From Chryseobacterium aquaeductus (GTDB lineage Bacteria > Bacteroidota > Bacteroidia > Flavobacteriales > Weeksellaceae), in contig NZ_CAJIMS010000001.1 in NCBI RefSeq assembly GCF_905175375.1, forward strand, positions 3,348,001 through 3,412,000: DNA of 64,000 nt, given 5' to 3'. Positions within the stretch are counted from its first letter, which is position 1; each line of letters starts with the position of its first letter. The notes below the pieces were generated by a model that had not been told where the DNA came from, made no database searches, and was given only the letters and a program-made list of their open reading frames with translations. Below are positions 13,290-21,517 of the stretch, one piece after another. A program made the translations under genes and the position numbers.

Positions 13290-16200
13290 TTACATCGCTT
13301 CCATCTTAAATGTCATACTTTCAATAACTTTTAGAATTGCTTCTACTGTATCCATTGATGTTAAACAAGGGACACCGTTCTCTACACTCATTCTTCTGAT
13401 CTGGAAACCGTCTCTTTCAGATTGTTTTCCTTTGGTCATCGTGTTCACAACATATTGCACTTTTCCTTTCTGGATCAAGTCGATTAAGTTTACACTTTCC
13501 TCACCTATTTTGTATCCTATTTTACAAGGAATTCCCTGCTCTCCGAAGAATTTTGCAGTTCCTTCCGTTGCCCAGATTCTGAAGCCAACTTCATGGAATC
13601 TTGCCGCCAAATCTGCAGCTTCCTGCTTGTGTTTATCAGCTACTGTGAATAAAATTGAACCGTGCATAGGAACTTTTCTTCCTGCCGCAACCAATCCTTT
13701 GTACAATGCTTTTTCTAAAGTCGTGTCTTTACCCATCACTTCTCCTGTAGACTTCATTTCTGGTCCTAAAGAAATATCAACCTTGGTTAATTTTGAGAAT
13801 GAGAACACAGGAACTTTTACGAAGACACCTTCTTTCTTAGGAACTAAACCATTTTTGTATCCTAAATCTTTCAGTTTCTGACCCAAGATAGCTTTTGTTG
13901 CTAAATTTGCCATTGGAATATCCGTAATTTTTGATAAGAAAGGAACCGTTCTTGAAGATCGGGGATTTACTTCGATTACATATACATTTCCGTCCAATAA
14001 AACATATTGAATATTCATTAATCCAATCACATTCAGACCTTTAGCCAACCTTTCTGTATAATCTACCAAAGTTGCAATCTCGGCTTCGGTAACGTTTTGT
14101 GGCGGATAGACAGCAATTGAATCTCCAGAATGCACTCCTGCTCTTTCAATATGCTCCATAATCCCTGGAATAATCACAGTTTCGCCATCGCAAATCGCAT
14201 CTATTTCCACTTCTTTTCCGGTGATATAACGGTCGATAAGAATTGGGTGTTCCGAACTTTCTTTTACAGCGTTGGTCATGTAATGATCAAGTTCTTTTTC
14301 GTCATAGACAATTTCCATGGCTCTTCCTCCCAAAACATAGCTAGGACGCACCAGGACAGGGAATCCAATCTCTTTAGCAATAACTAAAGCATCTTCTTTT
14401 GTAAAACAAGTTTTTCCTAAAGGTTGAGGAATCTTCATTTCCTGAAGAGCTTTTTCAAATTTATCTCTGTTTTCTGCTCTGTCAAGATCTTCCAATGAAG
14501 TTCCCAAGATTTTCACTCCGTAAGCTGCCAATTTATCGGCTAAGTTGATCGCAGTTTGTCCACCAAATTGTACCACCACTCCTTTTGGCTTTTCGAGATC
14601 GATGATATTCATTACATCTTCCTCCGTCAAAGGCTCAAAGTATAATTTATCTGAAATTGAAAAGTCTGTAGAAACAGTTTCAGGATTATTATTGATAATA
14701 ATGGCTTCGTAACCCATTTCTTTGATTGCCCACACCGAGTGAACGGTTGCATAATCAAACTCAACACCCTGACCAATTCTGATAGGACCAGAACCTAAAA
14801 CAATAATTTTCTCTTTATCTGAAACTATGCTTTCGTTTTCTTCTTCGTAAGTTCCGTAGAAATATGGCGTTTCACTTTCAAATTCTGCAGCACAAGTATC
14901 TACCATTTTGAAAACAGGTATTATTCCGTTTTCTTTTCTGAAGTTGTAAACCTCACGTTGCGTAACTTCCCAAAGATGAGCAATATTTAAATCTGCAAAA
15001 CCTAATTTTTTAGCTTTAATTAAAGTCTCAATATCAAACTTATTATCTGCAATTGTAGTTTCAAAATCAATCAATTTTTTGATTTTCCAGATAAAAAATT
15101 TGTCGATTTTGCTCCATTCTACGATCTTTTCCCAATCGTAGCCTCTTCTTAATGCATCGCCGATGATAAATAATCTCTCATCGTCACAAACTCTGATTCT
15201 TCTTTCGATTTCTTCGTCTGTTAAAGCTTCTGCCTGTTTTTTCTTTAAACCTAAATGTCTGATTCCTGTTTCCAGAGAACGGATGGCTTTCTGTAAAGAC
15301 TCTTCGAAATTTCTTCCGATGGCCATCACTTCACCAGTCGCTTTCATCTGAGTCGACAATCTTCTGTCTGCCGTTTCAAATTTATCGAAAGGAAATCTAG
15401 GGAATTTAGTGACAACATAATCCAAAGCCGGCTCGAAACAAGCGTACGTTTTACCTGTAACAGGATTCATAATTTCATCTAAAGTCAATCCCACAGCGAT
15501 TTTAGCAGCAATCTTCGCAATCGGATAACCAGTTGCTTTTGAAGCTAAAGCTGATGAACGCGAAACTCTCGGGTTCACTTCGATGATGTAATATTCAAAT
15601 GAATTTGGATCTAAAGCCAACTGAACATTGCATCCACCTTCAATTCCTAAAGCTCTGATGATCTTCAATGAAGCATTTCGCAACATCTGATATTCTCTGT
15701 CAGAAAGTGTCTGAGAAGGCGCCACAACGATTGAATCTCCTGTGTGAACTCCCACAGGATCTATATTTTCCATGTTACAAACCACAATTGCATTGTCATT
15801 TGCATCACGCATTACCTCGTATTCTATTTCTTTGAAACCTGCGATTGATCTTTCGATCAGACATTGCGTAACCGGACTATATTTCAGACCTAATTCTGCA
15901 ATCTCTTTTAATTCGATTTCGTTGGCAGCAATTCCACCACCTGTTCCTCCCATTGTGAAGGCAGGACGAACGATCACTGGATAACCGATTTCTTCAGCAA
16001 AGCTAAGCGCTCCTTCCACCGTTGTTACAATGTCTGATTCAGGAACTGGTTCGTTCAATTCTCTCATCAATTCACGGAACAAATCTCTGTCTTCCGCTCT
16101 GTTGATGGCTGAAAGTGTAGTTCCTAAAACTTCCACTTTACATTCTTCAAGAATCCCTGAATTTTCCAATTCTACCGCCATATTCAAACCAGTTTGTCCA

Positions 16201-16469
16201 CCAAGAGTTGGTAAAAGTGCATCTGGACGCTCTTTTCTGATGATGTGACTTACAAACTGAAGTGAAATTGGCTCAATGTAAACCTTGTCAGCGATTTCAA
16301 CATCTGTCATAATCGTTGCTGGGTTTGAGTTGATCAAAATCACCTTGTAGCCTTCTTCTCTCAAGGAAAGACAAGCCTGCGTTCCTGCGTAATCAAATTC
16401 CGCTGCCTGACCGATGATGATGGGTCCGGAACCGATTACTAAAATTGTTTTTATGTCGTTTCTTTTCAT
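13290..16469 (-). CDS. carB: Carbamoyl-phosphate synthase large subunit
   Basis: 1059 residues, the full length of bacterial CarB. The N-terminus [25 protein letters not shown] and the internal copy [20 protein letters not shown] (about residue 560) mark the two homologous ATP-grasp synthetase halves. The C-terminal part (about 940-1059) is the MGS-like allosteric domain that binds UMP/ornithine in other bacteria. The enzyme makes carbamoyl phosphate from ammonia supplied by CarA, bicarbonate and two ATP, for pyrimidines and arginine. It is separated from carA by a Y1 transposase gene and 178 bp containing five hairpins, an unusual split of a normally contiguous carAB pair. Confidence 0.97.
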
Positions 16470-16488
16470 TTTTTTCTTTTTTATTATT

Positions 16489-16639
16489 CCATGGATTGCA
16501 TCCGTGGCTATTATTATTGAACCATTTCATGGTTCTTTTATCTTTTTGGGTAGCCACAAAGTGGCTGAATTTTAATAGCCGTAGGTAAAACCTATGGATT
16601 GGATAATTAAATCATTTCGGCAACCCATGAAATGGGTTG
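16489..16639. repeat. Array of five short hairpins (REP-like) before carB
   Basis: Five palindromes with 6-8 bp arms and 3-nt loops: 16489-16507 (CCATGGAT/ATCCGTGG), 16519-16535 (GAACCAT/ATGGTTC), 16552-16566 (AGCCAC/GTGGCT), 16579-16597 (CCGTAGGT/ACCTATGG) and 16621-16639 (CAACCCAT/ATGGGTTG). Loops are TGC, TTC, AAA, AAA and GAA. Centres are about 29, 32, 29 and 42 bp apart. They lie directly downstream of the Y1 transposase gene, as REP palindromes do near RAYT transposases. Confidence 0.85.
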
Positions 16640-16647
16640 AACATTAT

Positions 16648-17094
16648 TTACCACAGATATTTTTCATCAAATTCAACTCTATTAGATTTTAACAAATTCT
16701 TATATTCAACCTCAAAAGATTCATTTTTATGATGTTCCTTTTGATTTTTAATATAACTCATGATCATATCTTTTTCTCTTTCTGAATAAGTGAATGCTCC
16801 GTAACCAGTTTGCCATTCTTCAAAATCAGGAAATAATCCGCTTTGCTTTATCCACAAGTTGCTTGAAACCTTAATATCTTTTACAAAACTGCTTAAAGAA
16901 ACTGCTGGATGTAAATCAGTAAATAAATGAATATGATCTGGCATTCCATTAATCCTATAAAGTTTGCAATTTTTATTCTTGACAATTCCCCAAATATATT
17001 TATATAATTGATCTTCATGCTCAATACTCAATACTGGTTTTCTGTGCTTAGTACTAAAGACAATGTGATAATATATTTGACGGAACGTTGACAT
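16648..17094 (-). CDS. Y1 (HUH) transposase of the IS200/RAYT type
   Basis: 148 residues. The single-domain Y1 fold is shown by YHIVFSTKHRKPVL at the start, the HUH motif PDHIHLF (His54 and His56) and the catalytic-Tyr helix MSYIKNQKEHH (Tyr114, Gln118). The enzyme family nicks and rejoins single-stranded DNA at hairpins. The ATG lies only 2 nt after the carA stop codon, so it is probably co-translated with carA as part of the pyr operon. No TnpB and no clear IS ends are present. Together with the hairpin array on its 3' side this favours a REP-associated (RAYT) domesticated transposase rather than a recent insertion. All key residues are intact. Confidence 0.88.
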   Translation of the reverse strand: MSTFRQIYYHIVFSTKHRKPVLSIEHEDQLYKYIWGIVKNKNCKLYRINGMPDHIHLFTDLHPAVSLSSFVKDIKVSSNLWIKQSGLFPDFEEWQTGYGAFTYSEREKDMIMSYIKNQKEHHKNESFEVEYKNLLKSNRVEFDEKYLW

Positions 17095-17096
17095 TT

Positions 17097-18173
17097 CTAT
17101 CTAATTTTAAAATCCTCCATTAACGTGATGAAATCATCAAACAAGTAATTTGCATCTTCAGGTCCAGGGCTCGCTTCCGGGTGATACTGAACTGAAAAGC
17201 AAGGATGGATTTTATGCTTCAGACCTTCGTTTGTTCTGTCATTCAATGCGATATGAGTCTCTATTAAATCTGTTCCTTTAAGGCTCTCCTGATCAACTGC
17301 GTAACCGTGGTTTTGAGAAGTAATCGCCACTTTATTTTTTTCTAAATCTAAAACCGGATGATTTCCTCCTCTGTGTCCGAATTTTAACTTGAAAGTTTTT
17401 GCACCGCAAGCCAATCCAATCAACTGATGCCCAAGACAAATCCCGAAAATTGGAACTTTTCCTAACAATCCGCGAATCATTTCCAAAGCCTTTTGATTAT
17501 CTTCAGGATCTCCGGGACCGTTGGATAACATGATTCCGTCCGGATCCATTAACAAGATTTCCTCTGCTGTTGTATCTTGTGAAACTACAATAATATCACA
17601 ATTTCTTTGAGATAACTCTCTGATTATTCCTAATTTAGAACCATAATCTACAAGCACTACTTTAAGACCTCTACCCGGATTTGCATAAGAAGTTTTTGTA
17701 GAAACCTGCTCCACCTGATTGGTTGGGAAAGTAGTTGATTTTAATTCTTCAACAATTTTGTTTTCGTCTGCATCTGCGTTTACGATTTTTCCTTTTACAA
17801 CACCTGAGTTACGAAGAATTCTTGTCAGTCTTCTGGTGTCAATCCCTGAAATTCCCGAAAGATTTTTCTTTTTAAACAATTCTTGTAAAGTAATCTGTGT
17901 TCTGAAATTGGAAGGCAGATCGCAAATTTCTTTTACAATAAGACCTTTGATTGCAGGCTCGATGCTTTCGTAGTCATCACGGTTGATCCCGTAATTTCCA
18001 ATCAGTGGATACGTCATGCAAACAATCTGACCACAATAAGATGGGTCAGAAATCAATTCCTGATATCCCGTCATTCCGGTATTGAAAACCACCTCTCCTG
18101 CTGTTTCCAAATCTGCTCCGAAACCTTCTCCATGAAATACTTCACCGGACTCCAGTATTAATTTTTTCTTCAT
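17097..18173 (-). CDS. carA: Carbamoyl-phosphate synthase small (glutaminase) subunit
   Basis: 358 residues. The N-terminal CarA domain (about 1-130, GEVVFNTGMTGYQE) is followed by a class I glutamine amidotransferase domain with catalytic Cys in PIFGICLGHQL and the His/Glu pair in VQYHPEASPGPED. It hydrolyses glutamine and channels ammonia to CarB. It sits 253 bp after pyrB and 2 nt before the transposase gene in one minus-strand operon, so pyrimidine control from the pyrB leader would reach it. The length and motifs are standard. Confidence 0.97.
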   Translation of the reverse strand: MKKKLILESGEVFHGEGFGADLETAGEVVFNTGMTGYQELISDPSYCGQIVCMTYPLIGNYGINRDDYESIEPAIKGLIVKEICDLPSNFRTQITLQELFKKKNLSGISGIDTRRLTRILRNSGVVKGKIVNADADENKIVEELKSTTFPTNQVEQVSTKTSYANPGRGLKVVLVDYGSKLGIIRELSQRNCDIIVVSQDTTAEEILLMDPDGIMLSNGPGDPEDNQKALEMIRGLLGKVPIFGICLGHQLIGLACGAKTFKLKFGHRGGNHPVLDLEKNKVAITSQNHGYAVDQESLKGTDLIETHIALNDRTNEGLKHKIHPCFSVQYHPEASPGPEDANYLFDDFITLMEDFKIR

Positions 18174-18238
18174 TTTAACTTTTTATCTTTATTTCTATTT
18201 TATTTACTTTTTTTCTAACCTATCAGATTTTTGATTCC

Positions 18239-18324
18239 GCCCTTTCAGGGCTCACGGACACCAATTTTTCCCTCTAACTCCATGGGCTTCACCCATTGCT
18301 ATTGAAAGGTCGCCCTTTCAGGGT
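18239..18324. repeat. Second REP-like hairpin group between pyrB and carA
   Basis: GCCCT-TTC-AGGGC at 18239-18251, ATGGG-CTTCA-CCCAT at 18282-18296 and GCCCT-TTC-AGGGT at 18312-18324 (followed by T8 on the plus strand). Arms of 5 bp and TTC loops match the style of the array at 16489-16639. It lies in the 253-bp pyrB-carA gap, on the 5' side of carA and the transposase gene. Confidence 0.75.
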
Positions 18325-18426
18325 TTTTTTTAGCATTATTACTTTTTTAGCGATTTTTAAACGATTTCAAATTAAATTTTTAAATCCCAAAAGCATTCAC
18401 ACTTGGCACTTCTAACTCTTGCTTGT

Positions 18427-19317: not shown

Positions 19318-19343
19318 AATATCTTAATTTTTGAACATAAAAA

Positions 19344-19366
19344 AAGCGAAGAAAATATCTTCGCTT
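19344..19366 (-). terminator. Attenuator terminator in the pyrB leader
   Basis: Minus strand: perfect 9-bp stem AAGCGAAGA (19366-19358) / TCTTCGCTT (19352-19344), 5-nt loop, followed by a run of T. It lies 27 nt upstream of the pyrB ATG and downstream of the operon promoter, so it can only act as a conditional (attenuator) terminator. The leader ORF stop codon overlaps its 5' arm. Confidence 0.85.
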
Positions 19367-19436
19367 AAAATAAATAAATATCGTAAAGGGCGTCTACGCC
19401 CGGTAATTCTAATGATATAAATACTGTGTTATTCAT
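19365..19436 (-). CDS. Putative pyrB leader peptide (23 aa)
   Basis: A 24-codon ORF from ATG at 19436 to TAA at 19365-19367, beginning MNNTVFISLE and ending YDIYLF. Its stop overlaps the first bases of the terminator 5' arm, and its last codons lie in a U-rich tract (ATTTATTTATTTT). This is the geometry of the enterobacterial pyrBI attenuator: with low UTP the polymerase pauses in the U-rich stretch, the following ribosome catches up and prevents the terminator hairpin. The start lies only about 6 nt after the -7 box, so the transcript would be almost leaderless. Too short for ordinary gene callers. The role is inferred from layout. Confidence 0.65.
   Translation of the reverse strand: MNNTVFISLELPGVDALYDIYLF
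19388..19401 (-). promoter_or_regulatory. Possible pause hairpin in the pyrB leader
   Basis: GGGCGT/ACGCCC with a 2-nt loop lies inside the leader ORF, just before the U-rich tract and about 20 nt upstream of the terminator. In pyrBI-type attenuators a hairpin here promotes polymerase pausing. A further 7-bp inverted repeat, CTAATGA/TCATTAG (19409-19415 and 19433-19439), covers the leader start codon. Confidence 0.5.
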
Positions 19437-19442
19437 TAGGTG

Positions 19443-19473
19443 CAAAGATATAACATTTGGGTAACATGACAAA
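19443..19473 (-). promoter_or_regulatory. Bacteroidota-type promoter of the pyr operon
   Basis: On the minus strand TTTG (19473-19470), a 19-nt spacer, then TATCTTTG (19450-19443), an exact fit to the -33 TTTG / -7 TAnnTTTG consensus. Transcription should begin near 19437-19440, giving a leader of about 120 nt before pyrB. Confidence 0.85.
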
Positions 19474-19559: not shown

Positions 19560-20021
19560 ATGGACGCAAAAGACAGGATGATTCTCAGCATAATTCAGGA
19601 AGATTCTACTTTCTCGGTGAAAGAAATTTCAGAGAAAATAGGCTTGACCTTTACTCCAACCTATGAGCGTATCAAACAGCTGGAGAAACAAGGAATTATT
19701 GAGAAATATGTCGGTCTTCTGAATCGTGAAAAATTGGGTTTAAATATTGTCGTTTACTGTAACGTCCGTCTGAAAGAGCAATCTAAAAAAGTTTTAGAAA
19801 CTTTTGAAAAAAACATCATGCAACACGATGAAGTTCAGGAAATCATCAGTCTCTCGGGAGAATACGATTATATGTTGAAAATCATTGCTAAAGATATTAA
19901 TTCTTATAATGATTTTACTGTCAATGTCATTTCAAATATTCCCAGTATCGGGCAATATCACAGTTCTATTGTGCTTCATGAGGTAAAGAAGTCGACTAAG
20001 TTTAAGATTGATTTGGGATAG
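19560..20021 (+). CDS. Lrp/AsnC family transcriptional regulator
   Basis: 153 residues. An N-terminal winged HTH (about 4-60, FSVKEISEKIGLTFTPTYERIKQLEKQGII) is followed by the RAM/AsnC ligand-binding domain (about 65-145) with the GEYDYMLKI strand. Such proteins form dimers to octamers and sense amino acids. It diverges from the pyr operon across a 240-bp gap, but the pyr leader has its own attenuator, so a role there is not implied. The target is unknown; the neighbouring arginine-gene remnant is one possible historical link. Confidence 0.92.
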   Translation: MDAKDRMILSIIQEDSTFSVKEISEKIGLTFTPTYERIKQLEKQGIIEKYVGLLNREKLGLNIVVYCNVRLKEQSKKVLETFEKNIMQHDEVQEIISLSGEYDYMLKIIAKDINSYNDFTVNVISNIPSIGQYHSSIVLHEVKKSTKFKIDLG

Positions 20022-20444: not shown

Positions 20445-21075
20445 TCACCCCAACAACTTATTTCTCAATTTATTAAACTGATATTCAATCTTATCCAAAC
20501 ACAAATTCCCAATGCTTCCCTGATGAGTATGACTTAAATTTTTAATTTCAAAATCAAACTCATTATTTTCAATCTCCTGACCTACTTTTACGTAGGCATC
20601 ACGGAATGAACTTCCGTTTTTTACCTCTTCATTAATTTTTTCTACACTGAAAAGATATTGATACTTATCATCTTCCAAAATTCCGTCTTTCACCTGAATA
20701 TTCGGTAAAGTATAGCTTAAAATTTCAAGACATTCTTTCAAAGAATTAATGGCTGGGAAAAGAATTTCCTTCGTCAACTGCATATCTCTGTGATAGCCCG
20801 AAGGAAGATTATTCGTCAATAAAATAAACTCATTTGGCAAGGACTGAATTCTGTTGCAACGCGCACGAACCACTTCAAAAAATATCCGGATTTTCTTGTG
20901 TGGCATAATGCTGCTTCCCGTTGTAAACTCTTTTGGAAAGCTTATAAAATCAAAGTTTTGACTTAAATAAAGGCAGACATCATACGCAAATTTCCCCAAC
21001 GTTCCCGCCAATATCGCCATTGCCATCGACAAAATTTTCTCTGATTTTTCCGCGCGTCATTTGAGCATACACCGA
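20445..21075 (-). pseudogene. argH: argH remnant (C-terminal half of argininosuccinate lyase, frameshifted)
   Basis: The reading frame 20445-21032 encodes the C-terminal half of argininosuccinate lyase, including the TGSSIMPHKK signature. Reading on into another frame upstream recovers SVYAQMTRGK then SEKIL, so one extra A in the A5 run at 21045-21049 breaks the frame. Within the signature, KKNPDIFEVV is replaced by KKIRIFFEVV because one base is missing in the run at 20891-20894 and one is extra in the run at 20877-20882; the two indels cancel. About 200 residues of the N-terminal half are absent. The remainder joins in-frame to a GNAT gene remnant. A working lyase is not possible from this locus alone. 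Confidence 0.85.
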
Positions 21076-21517
21076 GCTTTGGCAGCCGCTCCAGAATTCT
21101 TCGTCCTGTGTCAATTCAGAATAAATTACAGGTTTGTATCCTAAATCACTGTTGATTTTCATCACAGCAAGACCAGTTGTTAAACCAAAAATTTTTGCAC
21201 TTGGAATTTCTATCTCGATAATGCAAACACTCTGTCTTTGATCAAAGTTGCAAAACCTCCATGCCTGAATTTGGGAGAGACGATCAGTCCGGAGTTTGCT
21301 ACAAACTGACCATGTGACCAAGTTTCTATGTAACAGAAACCCACCCATTCAACATTTTCGGTGGCGACAACAGCATTGCCTTCCGAAATCTTTTTGCTTA
21401 AATATTCGATGGAACGCTTTGCAATCCCCGTTCCTCGTCGCTGCGCAGAATCATACATTTCCTACTGTATTCATGTACATACATTAAATGTTGATCAGAA
21501 GAAATCTTTATTTCCAT
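21076..21517 (-). pseudogene. GNAT acetyltransferase remnant of an arginine gene cluster
   Basis: Minus-strand frames from ATG 21517 (MEIKISSDQHLMYVHE), then EMYDSAQRRGTGIAKRS (frame of 21210-21458), then AKIFGLTTGLAVMKINSDLG and DEEFWSGCQS (frame of 20980-21348) together rebuild the GNAT-fold acetyltransferase that in Bacteroidota usually precedes argG in arginine operons. The gene is broken by a TAG at 21462-21464 with a frameshift and by a TAG at 21210-21212 with a one-base loss. The C-terminus is cut after CQS and continues into argH sequence. A deletion that removed argG and neighbours would produce this join. Sequence errors cannot explain the missing halves. Confidence 0.8.

Follow-up and report, generated by a model that had tools for sequence, protein, structure and literature searches.

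Bacillus pyr operons are controlled by PyrR-dependent attenuation, whereas E. coli pyrC and pyrD rely on start-site switching, with a hairpin that forms at the very 5' end of the RNA and can hide the translation start. The E. coli pyrBI operon, with its leader gene pyrL, uses another mechanism: a shortage of UTP makes the polymerase pause on its U-rich leader, and the coupled ribosome then keeps the terminator from folding (PMC10135430). The pyrL ORF (4472399-4472533 in E. coli) is 44 codons long, is preceded by a GGAGG shortly before its ATG, includes the terminator within its length and ends 3 nt before pyrB, which starts at 4472395. When the leader stop was moved in E. coli from 28 to 5 bp before the terminator, termination fell from ~90% to under 10%, while amino-acid attenuators leave over 20 bp between leader gene and terminator (PMC4824070). 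According to PMC9723704, leader-peptide attenuation has been proposed for amino-acid operons of Flavobacterium psychrophilum, where a TAnnTTTG box occupies -12 to -5 and leaderless mRNAs make up 5.5% of those examined, and translation in Bacteroidota is mostly initiated without Shine-Dalgarno sequences. No pyrB leader peptide was found for this group in the literature titles and abstracts searched; this is weak evidence of novelty, since subscription journals lay mostly outside the scope of the search.

The locus described here lies on the minus strand, directly upstream of pyrB, in a 64,000-nucleotide stretch of Chryseobacterium aquaeductus DNA (the window). The features of this region and of the genes downstream are collected in the table. 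The initial annotation had listed an exact promoter, a leader ORF whose TAA overlaps a perfect 9-bp terminator, a pause-like hairpin and a U-rich tract, and all of them are present. Its ORF of 24 codons is indeed there, with 23 codons plus a stop (the figure of 24 includes the stop), and the terminator, placed 27 nt upstream of pyrB, does lie close before the gene, the spacing between the end of its stem and the pyrB ATG being 26 nt.

Features of the pyrB leader and of the pyrB-carA-carB genes in the window
Feature	Position	Strand	Basis
-33 promoter element, TTTG	19470..19473	-	seen directly in the sequence
-7 promoter element, TATCTTTG	19443..19450	-	seen directly in the sequence
Leader ORF, 23 codons plus TAA, MNNTVFISLELPGVDALYDIYLF, near-leaderless	19365..19436	-	sequence; stop position kept across the family
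Hairpin 1, contains the start codon, CUAAUGA/UCAUUAG	19409..19439	-	predicted fold
Hairpin 2, GGGCG-UAGA-CGCCC, pause-like	19388..19401	-	predicted fold
U-rich tract closing the leader ORF, UUUACGAUAUUUAUUUAUUUU	19367..19387	-	sequence; T enrichment
Intrinsic terminator, 9-bp stem and T-run	19339..19366	-	sequence; compensatory changes
pyrB, aspartate carbamoyltransferase catalytic subunit, 296 aa	18427..19317	-	NF002032, 358.9 bits, cut-off 263
carA, downstream of pyrB	17097..18173	-	NF009475, 483.2 bits
carB, downstream of carA	13290..16469	-	NF003671, 1623.3 bits

The TTTG and TATCTTTG elements, separated by a 19-nt spacer, form an exact promoter of the Bacteroidota type. The TATCTTTG box is followed by CACCTA and then by the leader ATG (19436-19434, minus strand), so that the ORF begins 7 nt past the -7 box. 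At the other end, the leader TAA (19367-19365, minus strand) provides with its last two bases the first two bases of the terminator stem, AAGCGAAGA/TCTTCGCTT, which is a perfect 9-bp stem spanning 19366-19344 (minus strand) and followed by a T-run that reaches 19339. The predicted fold of 19318-19448 has an energy of -28.9 kcal/mol, compared with -15.3 (sd 2.85) for 200 dinucleotide shuffles, none of which folds as well (0/200; z -4.8). One match to an Rfam family, obtained among 12 loci in a search allowing E values up to 0.1, scored 25 bits against a gathering threshold of 114 and was taken as chance.

The neighbourhood shows several other features. An IS200/IS605-type transposase gene (16648-17094, minus strand) lies between carA and carB, and the transposase is matched in 12 of 80 closely related loci. 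Small palindromes with a REP-like look are found in both intergenic gaps of pyrB-carA-carB (16470-16647 and 18174-18426). Beyond the leader, an Lrp/AsnC-like regulator gene (19560-20021, plus strand; best NCBIfam match below its cut-off) is divergent from pyrB, and the overlapping reading frames at 20445-21348 (minus strand) have the look of an argininosuccinate lyase in pieces, judging from a motif.

The arrangement resembles that of E. coli pyrBI in its leader ORF, its U-rich leader and an intrinsic terminator shortly before pyrB, whose hairpin a trailing ribosome could block. Contrary to what the initial annotation had stated, however, it is not exactly the same arrangement: unlike pyrL, which runs through the terminator nearly to pyrB, the leader of the window has only 23 codons, starts near the predicted 5' end of the RNA, has its stop on the terminator's 5' arm and does not span the terminator. 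This difference is taken as variation, and spanning of the terminator is not regarded as required for its masking by a ribosome.

The initial annotation had proposed to look for the leader in close relatives, a lack of conservation there counting against its reading, and the leader was found in all 80 closely related loci and at 105 of the 115 pyrB places of the family sample described below. The closely related set consists of the best 80 of 279 related stretches, with PyrB identity of 90-98%, 79 of them titled Chryseobacterium and one Weeksellaceae bacterium. When the related sets are pooled into 110 loci (the window, L002, which is the same place again, 29 other loci and 79 of the 80 closely related ones, these sources overlapping in species), the leader anchor motif is found in 110/110 and the stop lies 3-7 nt ahead of the terminator core in 106. 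Among the remaining four, two were mis-scored because the pattern matched hairpin 2 and two read into or past the terminator. In the 22 distinct ORFs of equal length (out of 29 distinct ones), 3, 9 and 6 of 22 columns are variable at codon positions 1, 2 and 3, respectively. As there is no excess of variation at third positions, it is the nucleotides of the Chryseobacterium leader, rather than the peptide, that seem to be under conservation.

The wider sample comprises 148 genomes of one family, which we infer to be the Weeksellaceae. PyrB was matched at E <= 1e-40 in 114 of them, at 115 places; at this threshold 34 genomes, many of them near complete, gave no match (e.g. G106, G115 and G117). 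One genome, G109, carries pyrB in two copies with a leader before each (L126 and L127). Upstream regions were taken from 60 family loci, six of them from Chryseobacterium, and 56 of these together with the window make up a 57-locus set, the four g17 loci, devoid of the terminator core, being left out. TAnnTTTG is found in 57/57 loci, which had been chosen with a looser form of this motif, and an ATG follows 5-7 nt later in all of them (exactly 6 nt in 51). The TTTG element at a spacing of 18-20 nt is present in only 22/57.

In 48 of the 57 loci, no more than 12 nt separate the end of the ORF from the terminator core that follows. With one locus per genus, this holds for 19 of 25 genera, compared with 1.76 expected from dinucleotide shuffles, although the probability attached to this count overstates independence since the genera share descent. 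Among the nine loci with an off-position stop, the stop comes early in L128 and L140, falls within the terminator in L115, L137 and L148 and past it in L133 and L149, while L129 and L134 have no stop before pyrB. The stop of L128 is too early for easy cover of the terminator arm; this leader, from genus g4, stands ~120 nt from pyrB and is perhaps decaying. The leader peptides are strongly divergent from genus to genus, yet the stop remains at the terminator. The conservation of frame and stop position, together with the divergence of the peptides, fits and supports a translation-coupled attenuator similar to that of pyrBI.

The segment between 25 and 4 nt before the terminator core has a T fraction of 0.50, compared with 0.27 elsewhere in the ORF, and is richer in T than the rest in 56/57 loci. 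An ATATTT within this tract is present in 46 of the 57 loci, 17 or 18 nt ahead of the core in 33 of these 46, its reading frame being 1 in 39 loci, 0 in five and 2 in two. Since the motif is kept while being read in three frames, nucleotides rather than residues appear to be maintained; a U-tract that stays while its translation can change favours a role towards the polymerase and argues against a stalling peptide. In the window, the U residues 8-12 nt past hairpin 2 are at the spacing expected for a hairpin-stabilised pause.

The tract also bears on the possibility that the leader mediates ribosome-dependent attenuation in response to another signal, scarce charged tRNA or general translation stress slowing the ribosome instead of scarce UTP slowing the polymerase. 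The anatomy of an ORF followed by a terminator names no signal by itself, and the final leader codons are often those of Ile, Tyr, Phe or Leu. However, these codons shift with the frame between some genera whereas the U-tract remains constant, and the family peptides share no run of regulatory codons. The minimum-energy folds of complete leaders contain no competing antiterminator pairing with the terminator arm, and a ribosome stalled early would, by reasoning, free the terminator, which is the wrong sign for a starvation response. Furthermore, the stop overlaps the terminator arm here, at variance with the distance of more than 20 bp reported for amino-acid attenuators (PMC4824070). Such an alternative signal is thus improbable. 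The attenuation proposed for F. psychrophilum amino-acid operons shares with this leader the use of a leader peptide and the control of elongation (PMC9723704); it differs from the present case, in which the target is a pyrimidine gene, no regulatory codon run is shared and the stop overlaps the terminator.

In the terminator, 5 of the 9 consensus pairs carry compensatory changes (54 sequences), and RNAalifold on the mixed family alignment recovered this structure alone. Hairpins 1 and 2 were perhaps missed because they shift in position between genera. Compared with shuffles, hairpin 2 gives a summed z of -8.8 over 25 genera and is significant on its own (p < 0.05) in 10 of them; for hairpin 1 the summed z is -5.0, with 7/25 genera at p < 0.05, both sums overstating independence because the genera are related by descent. 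Hairpin 1 of the window had p 0.20 in this comparison, on a shortened segment. In 16 of 25 genera, the predicted 5' hairpin holds at least two of the three AUG bases in pairs. A partner motif, CATTR or CGTTR, follows the AUG, at several distances, in 36/57 loci (21 being without it) and in 11 of 25 genera compared with 2.8 expected. The base at -2 pairs with the R of this motif in 34 of the 36 loci (24 T-A and 10 C-G, two being unpaired); as this table counts related loci, it reduces to 13 distinct genus variants, six C-G, five T-A and two unpaired (p 0.02). Hairpin 1 is therefore probably real without being universal, and is found in about half of the genera.

The recurrence in place of hairpin 2 and, in part, of hairpin 1, together with the high nucleotide conservation inside Chryseobacterium, could also be expected if the leader RNA were bound by a protein or small molecule, in the manner of Bacillus PyrR, the ORF being secondary. 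The sequences and loops of the hairpins nevertheless vary between genera, with no common loop motif recognizable by eye, whereas the stop position is constant; the whole window has no Rfam match at gathering thresholds, and no PyrR was detected in any of the 148 family genomes at E <= 1e-15 (in the control, 6 of 14 genomes were over the cut-off). A leader governed by RNA binding is hence very unlikely. The genome of C. aquaeductus itself has no PyrR over the cut-off of 138 bits, its best match reaching 30.

The leader was described by a covariance model (R1) trained on 54 sequences; about half of its 105 matches at pyrB are therefore there by construction. The model was searched with stricter filters, which lose weak matches. 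It matches 109 of the 148 family genomes, with 134 matches in total, of which 105 are directly upstream of pyrB; of the ten pyrB places without a match, nine belong to g17 genomes and the tenth is a gene match whose start is missing. The other 29 family matches are weak (at most 45.3 bits). Among 99 genomes of the phylum, strong matches are limited to three, all Chryseobacterium, the others reaching at most 40.7 bits. The weak matches were considered as candidates for further attenuators and rejected: the 12 that were read by eye (11 of the 29 family matches away from pyrB and one from the phylum) resemble gene ends with a terminator.

Genes ending just before similar terminators are thus common here, and it may be asked whether the structure upstream of pyrB is a plain terminator of stray upstream transcription, accompanied by a chance ORF or by a small functional protein. 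Against this, the terminator core is preceded by a same-strand -7 box at a distance of only ~84-101 nt throughout the 57-locus set (selection allowed 60-125 nt), the peptide shows no protein-like conservation and the association with pyrB is near-complete, which makes this explanation extremely improbable.

The genomes of genus g17 depart from the common plan. In the four of their nine loci that were examined (L154-L157), pyrB is divergent, the terminator is different and is traversed by a frame of 69-82 codons, its first TTG being taken as the start since ATG and GTG starts are absent. In two loci this frame ends 18 and 8 nt short of pyrB, and in the two others it stays open to the pyrB start. 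These loci, as well as L129, L133, L134 and L149, resemble E. coli pyrL in having an ORF that runs through the terminator, and ORFs reading into or through the terminator, in these g17 loci and in some others, also fit masking by a ribosome.

The leader is thus probably a transcription attenuator of the pyrBI type, which would sense UTP through coupled translation before pyrB. Within this type, the family leader is best read as a variant with a near-leaderless start, an AUG often located in a hairpin and a stop at the terminator. The pyrBI-like attenuator put forward in the initial annotation is upheld by the conserved frame and stop, the U-tract read in three frames, the covariation of the terminator, the restriction to pyrB and the failure to find PyrR, with UTP as its presumed signal. 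Points that weigh against this reading are the nine loci with an off-position stop, the presence of hairpin 1 in about half of the genera and an exact -33 TTTG in only 22 of the 57 loci.

The comparison shows the ORF, the stop position, the U-tract, hairpin 2, the terminator, the restriction to pyrB and the lack of a detected PyrR; from these, we infer the transcription start, the translation of the leader ORF, the pausing, the signal and the readthrough in the following scheme. Transcription would start a few bases before the leader AUG (~2 nt if the box rule of F. psychrophilum applies), allowing immediate loading of a ribosome without a Shine-Dalgarno sequence. At high UTP, the polymerase would outrun the ribosome past the U-rich tract, the terminator would fold and transcription would stop before pyrB. 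At low UTP, the polymerase would pause in the U-tract after hairpin 2 and the ribosome would catch up. As the stop codon overlaps the 5' arm of the terminator, a ribosome positioned there would mask this arm, leading to readthrough into pyrB and perhaps into carA-carB.

A further, rather unlikely possibility is a gate with two stages that has no equivalent in pyrL. Hairpin 1 would close over the AUG when the RNA reaches ~30 nt, and only a ribosome loaded early could follow the polymerase, a pause of which would then let it reach the terminator. Initiation would thereby be timed against transcription, perhaps against a nucleotide-dependent choice of the start base, and a coupled attenuation on leaderless mRNA would have arisen in place of PyrR. 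Hairpin 1 is similar to the hairpin of E. coli pyrC and pyrD in that it lies at the extreme 5' end and could hide a translation start; it differs in covering the AUG of the leader instead of the Shine-Dalgarno sequence of the enzyme gene.

With regard to origin, the rest of the order provides a contrast. PyrR is over the cut-off in 76 of the 119 genomes of the order sample and in none of its 14 family members; outside the family, its gene is directly upstream of 76 of the 77 pyrB places in order genomes with a PyrB match. By eye, no leader ORF of this kind was seen before PyrR at seven loci from other families. PyrR attenuation shares with the family leader its target gene and, in other Flavobacteriales, its position before pyrB, and differs from it in relying on an RNA-binding protein where the family, in which no PyrR was found, has a leader ORF. 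The family PyrB is itself divergent, with 35-46% identity to PyrB outside the family.

Because the rest of the order sample has PyrR beside pyrB, the attenuator looks derived within the family, and the leader apparently took the place of PyrR family-wide. The three strong R1 matches in the phylum, confined to Chryseobacterium, point to an origin probably separate from that of enterobacterial pyrL, the E. coli region having been compared by eye. The initial annotation had left the choice between an independent and an ancestral origin: the former is probable, and the attenuator looks derived within the family rather than ancestral.

The Lrp/AsnC-like gene was also considered as the regulator. 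It is found in 78 of the 80 closely related loci and in 12 of 60 further loci (1.5 kb each), namely 5 of 6 further Chryseobacterium and 7 of 54 from other genera. As the leader occurs more widely than this gene, it is independent of it, and the candidate was rejected.

Globally, the leader is real and general in the family, and it most likely works like pyrBI attenuation. No PyrI was matched in the 40 family genomes searched, and the control of enzyme synthesis may therefore carry more weight in these bacteria. The data point to an exchange of pyrimidine controls at the scale of a family, PyrR adjoining pyrB elsewhere in the order sample and a ribosome-coupled leader apparently taking its place here. 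Tight coupling between ribosome and polymerase has, to our knowledge, not been established for Bacteroidota, which also weighs against the proposed scheme; with this leader, it can be tested directly whether RNA polymerase is closely trailed by ribosomes in this phylum.
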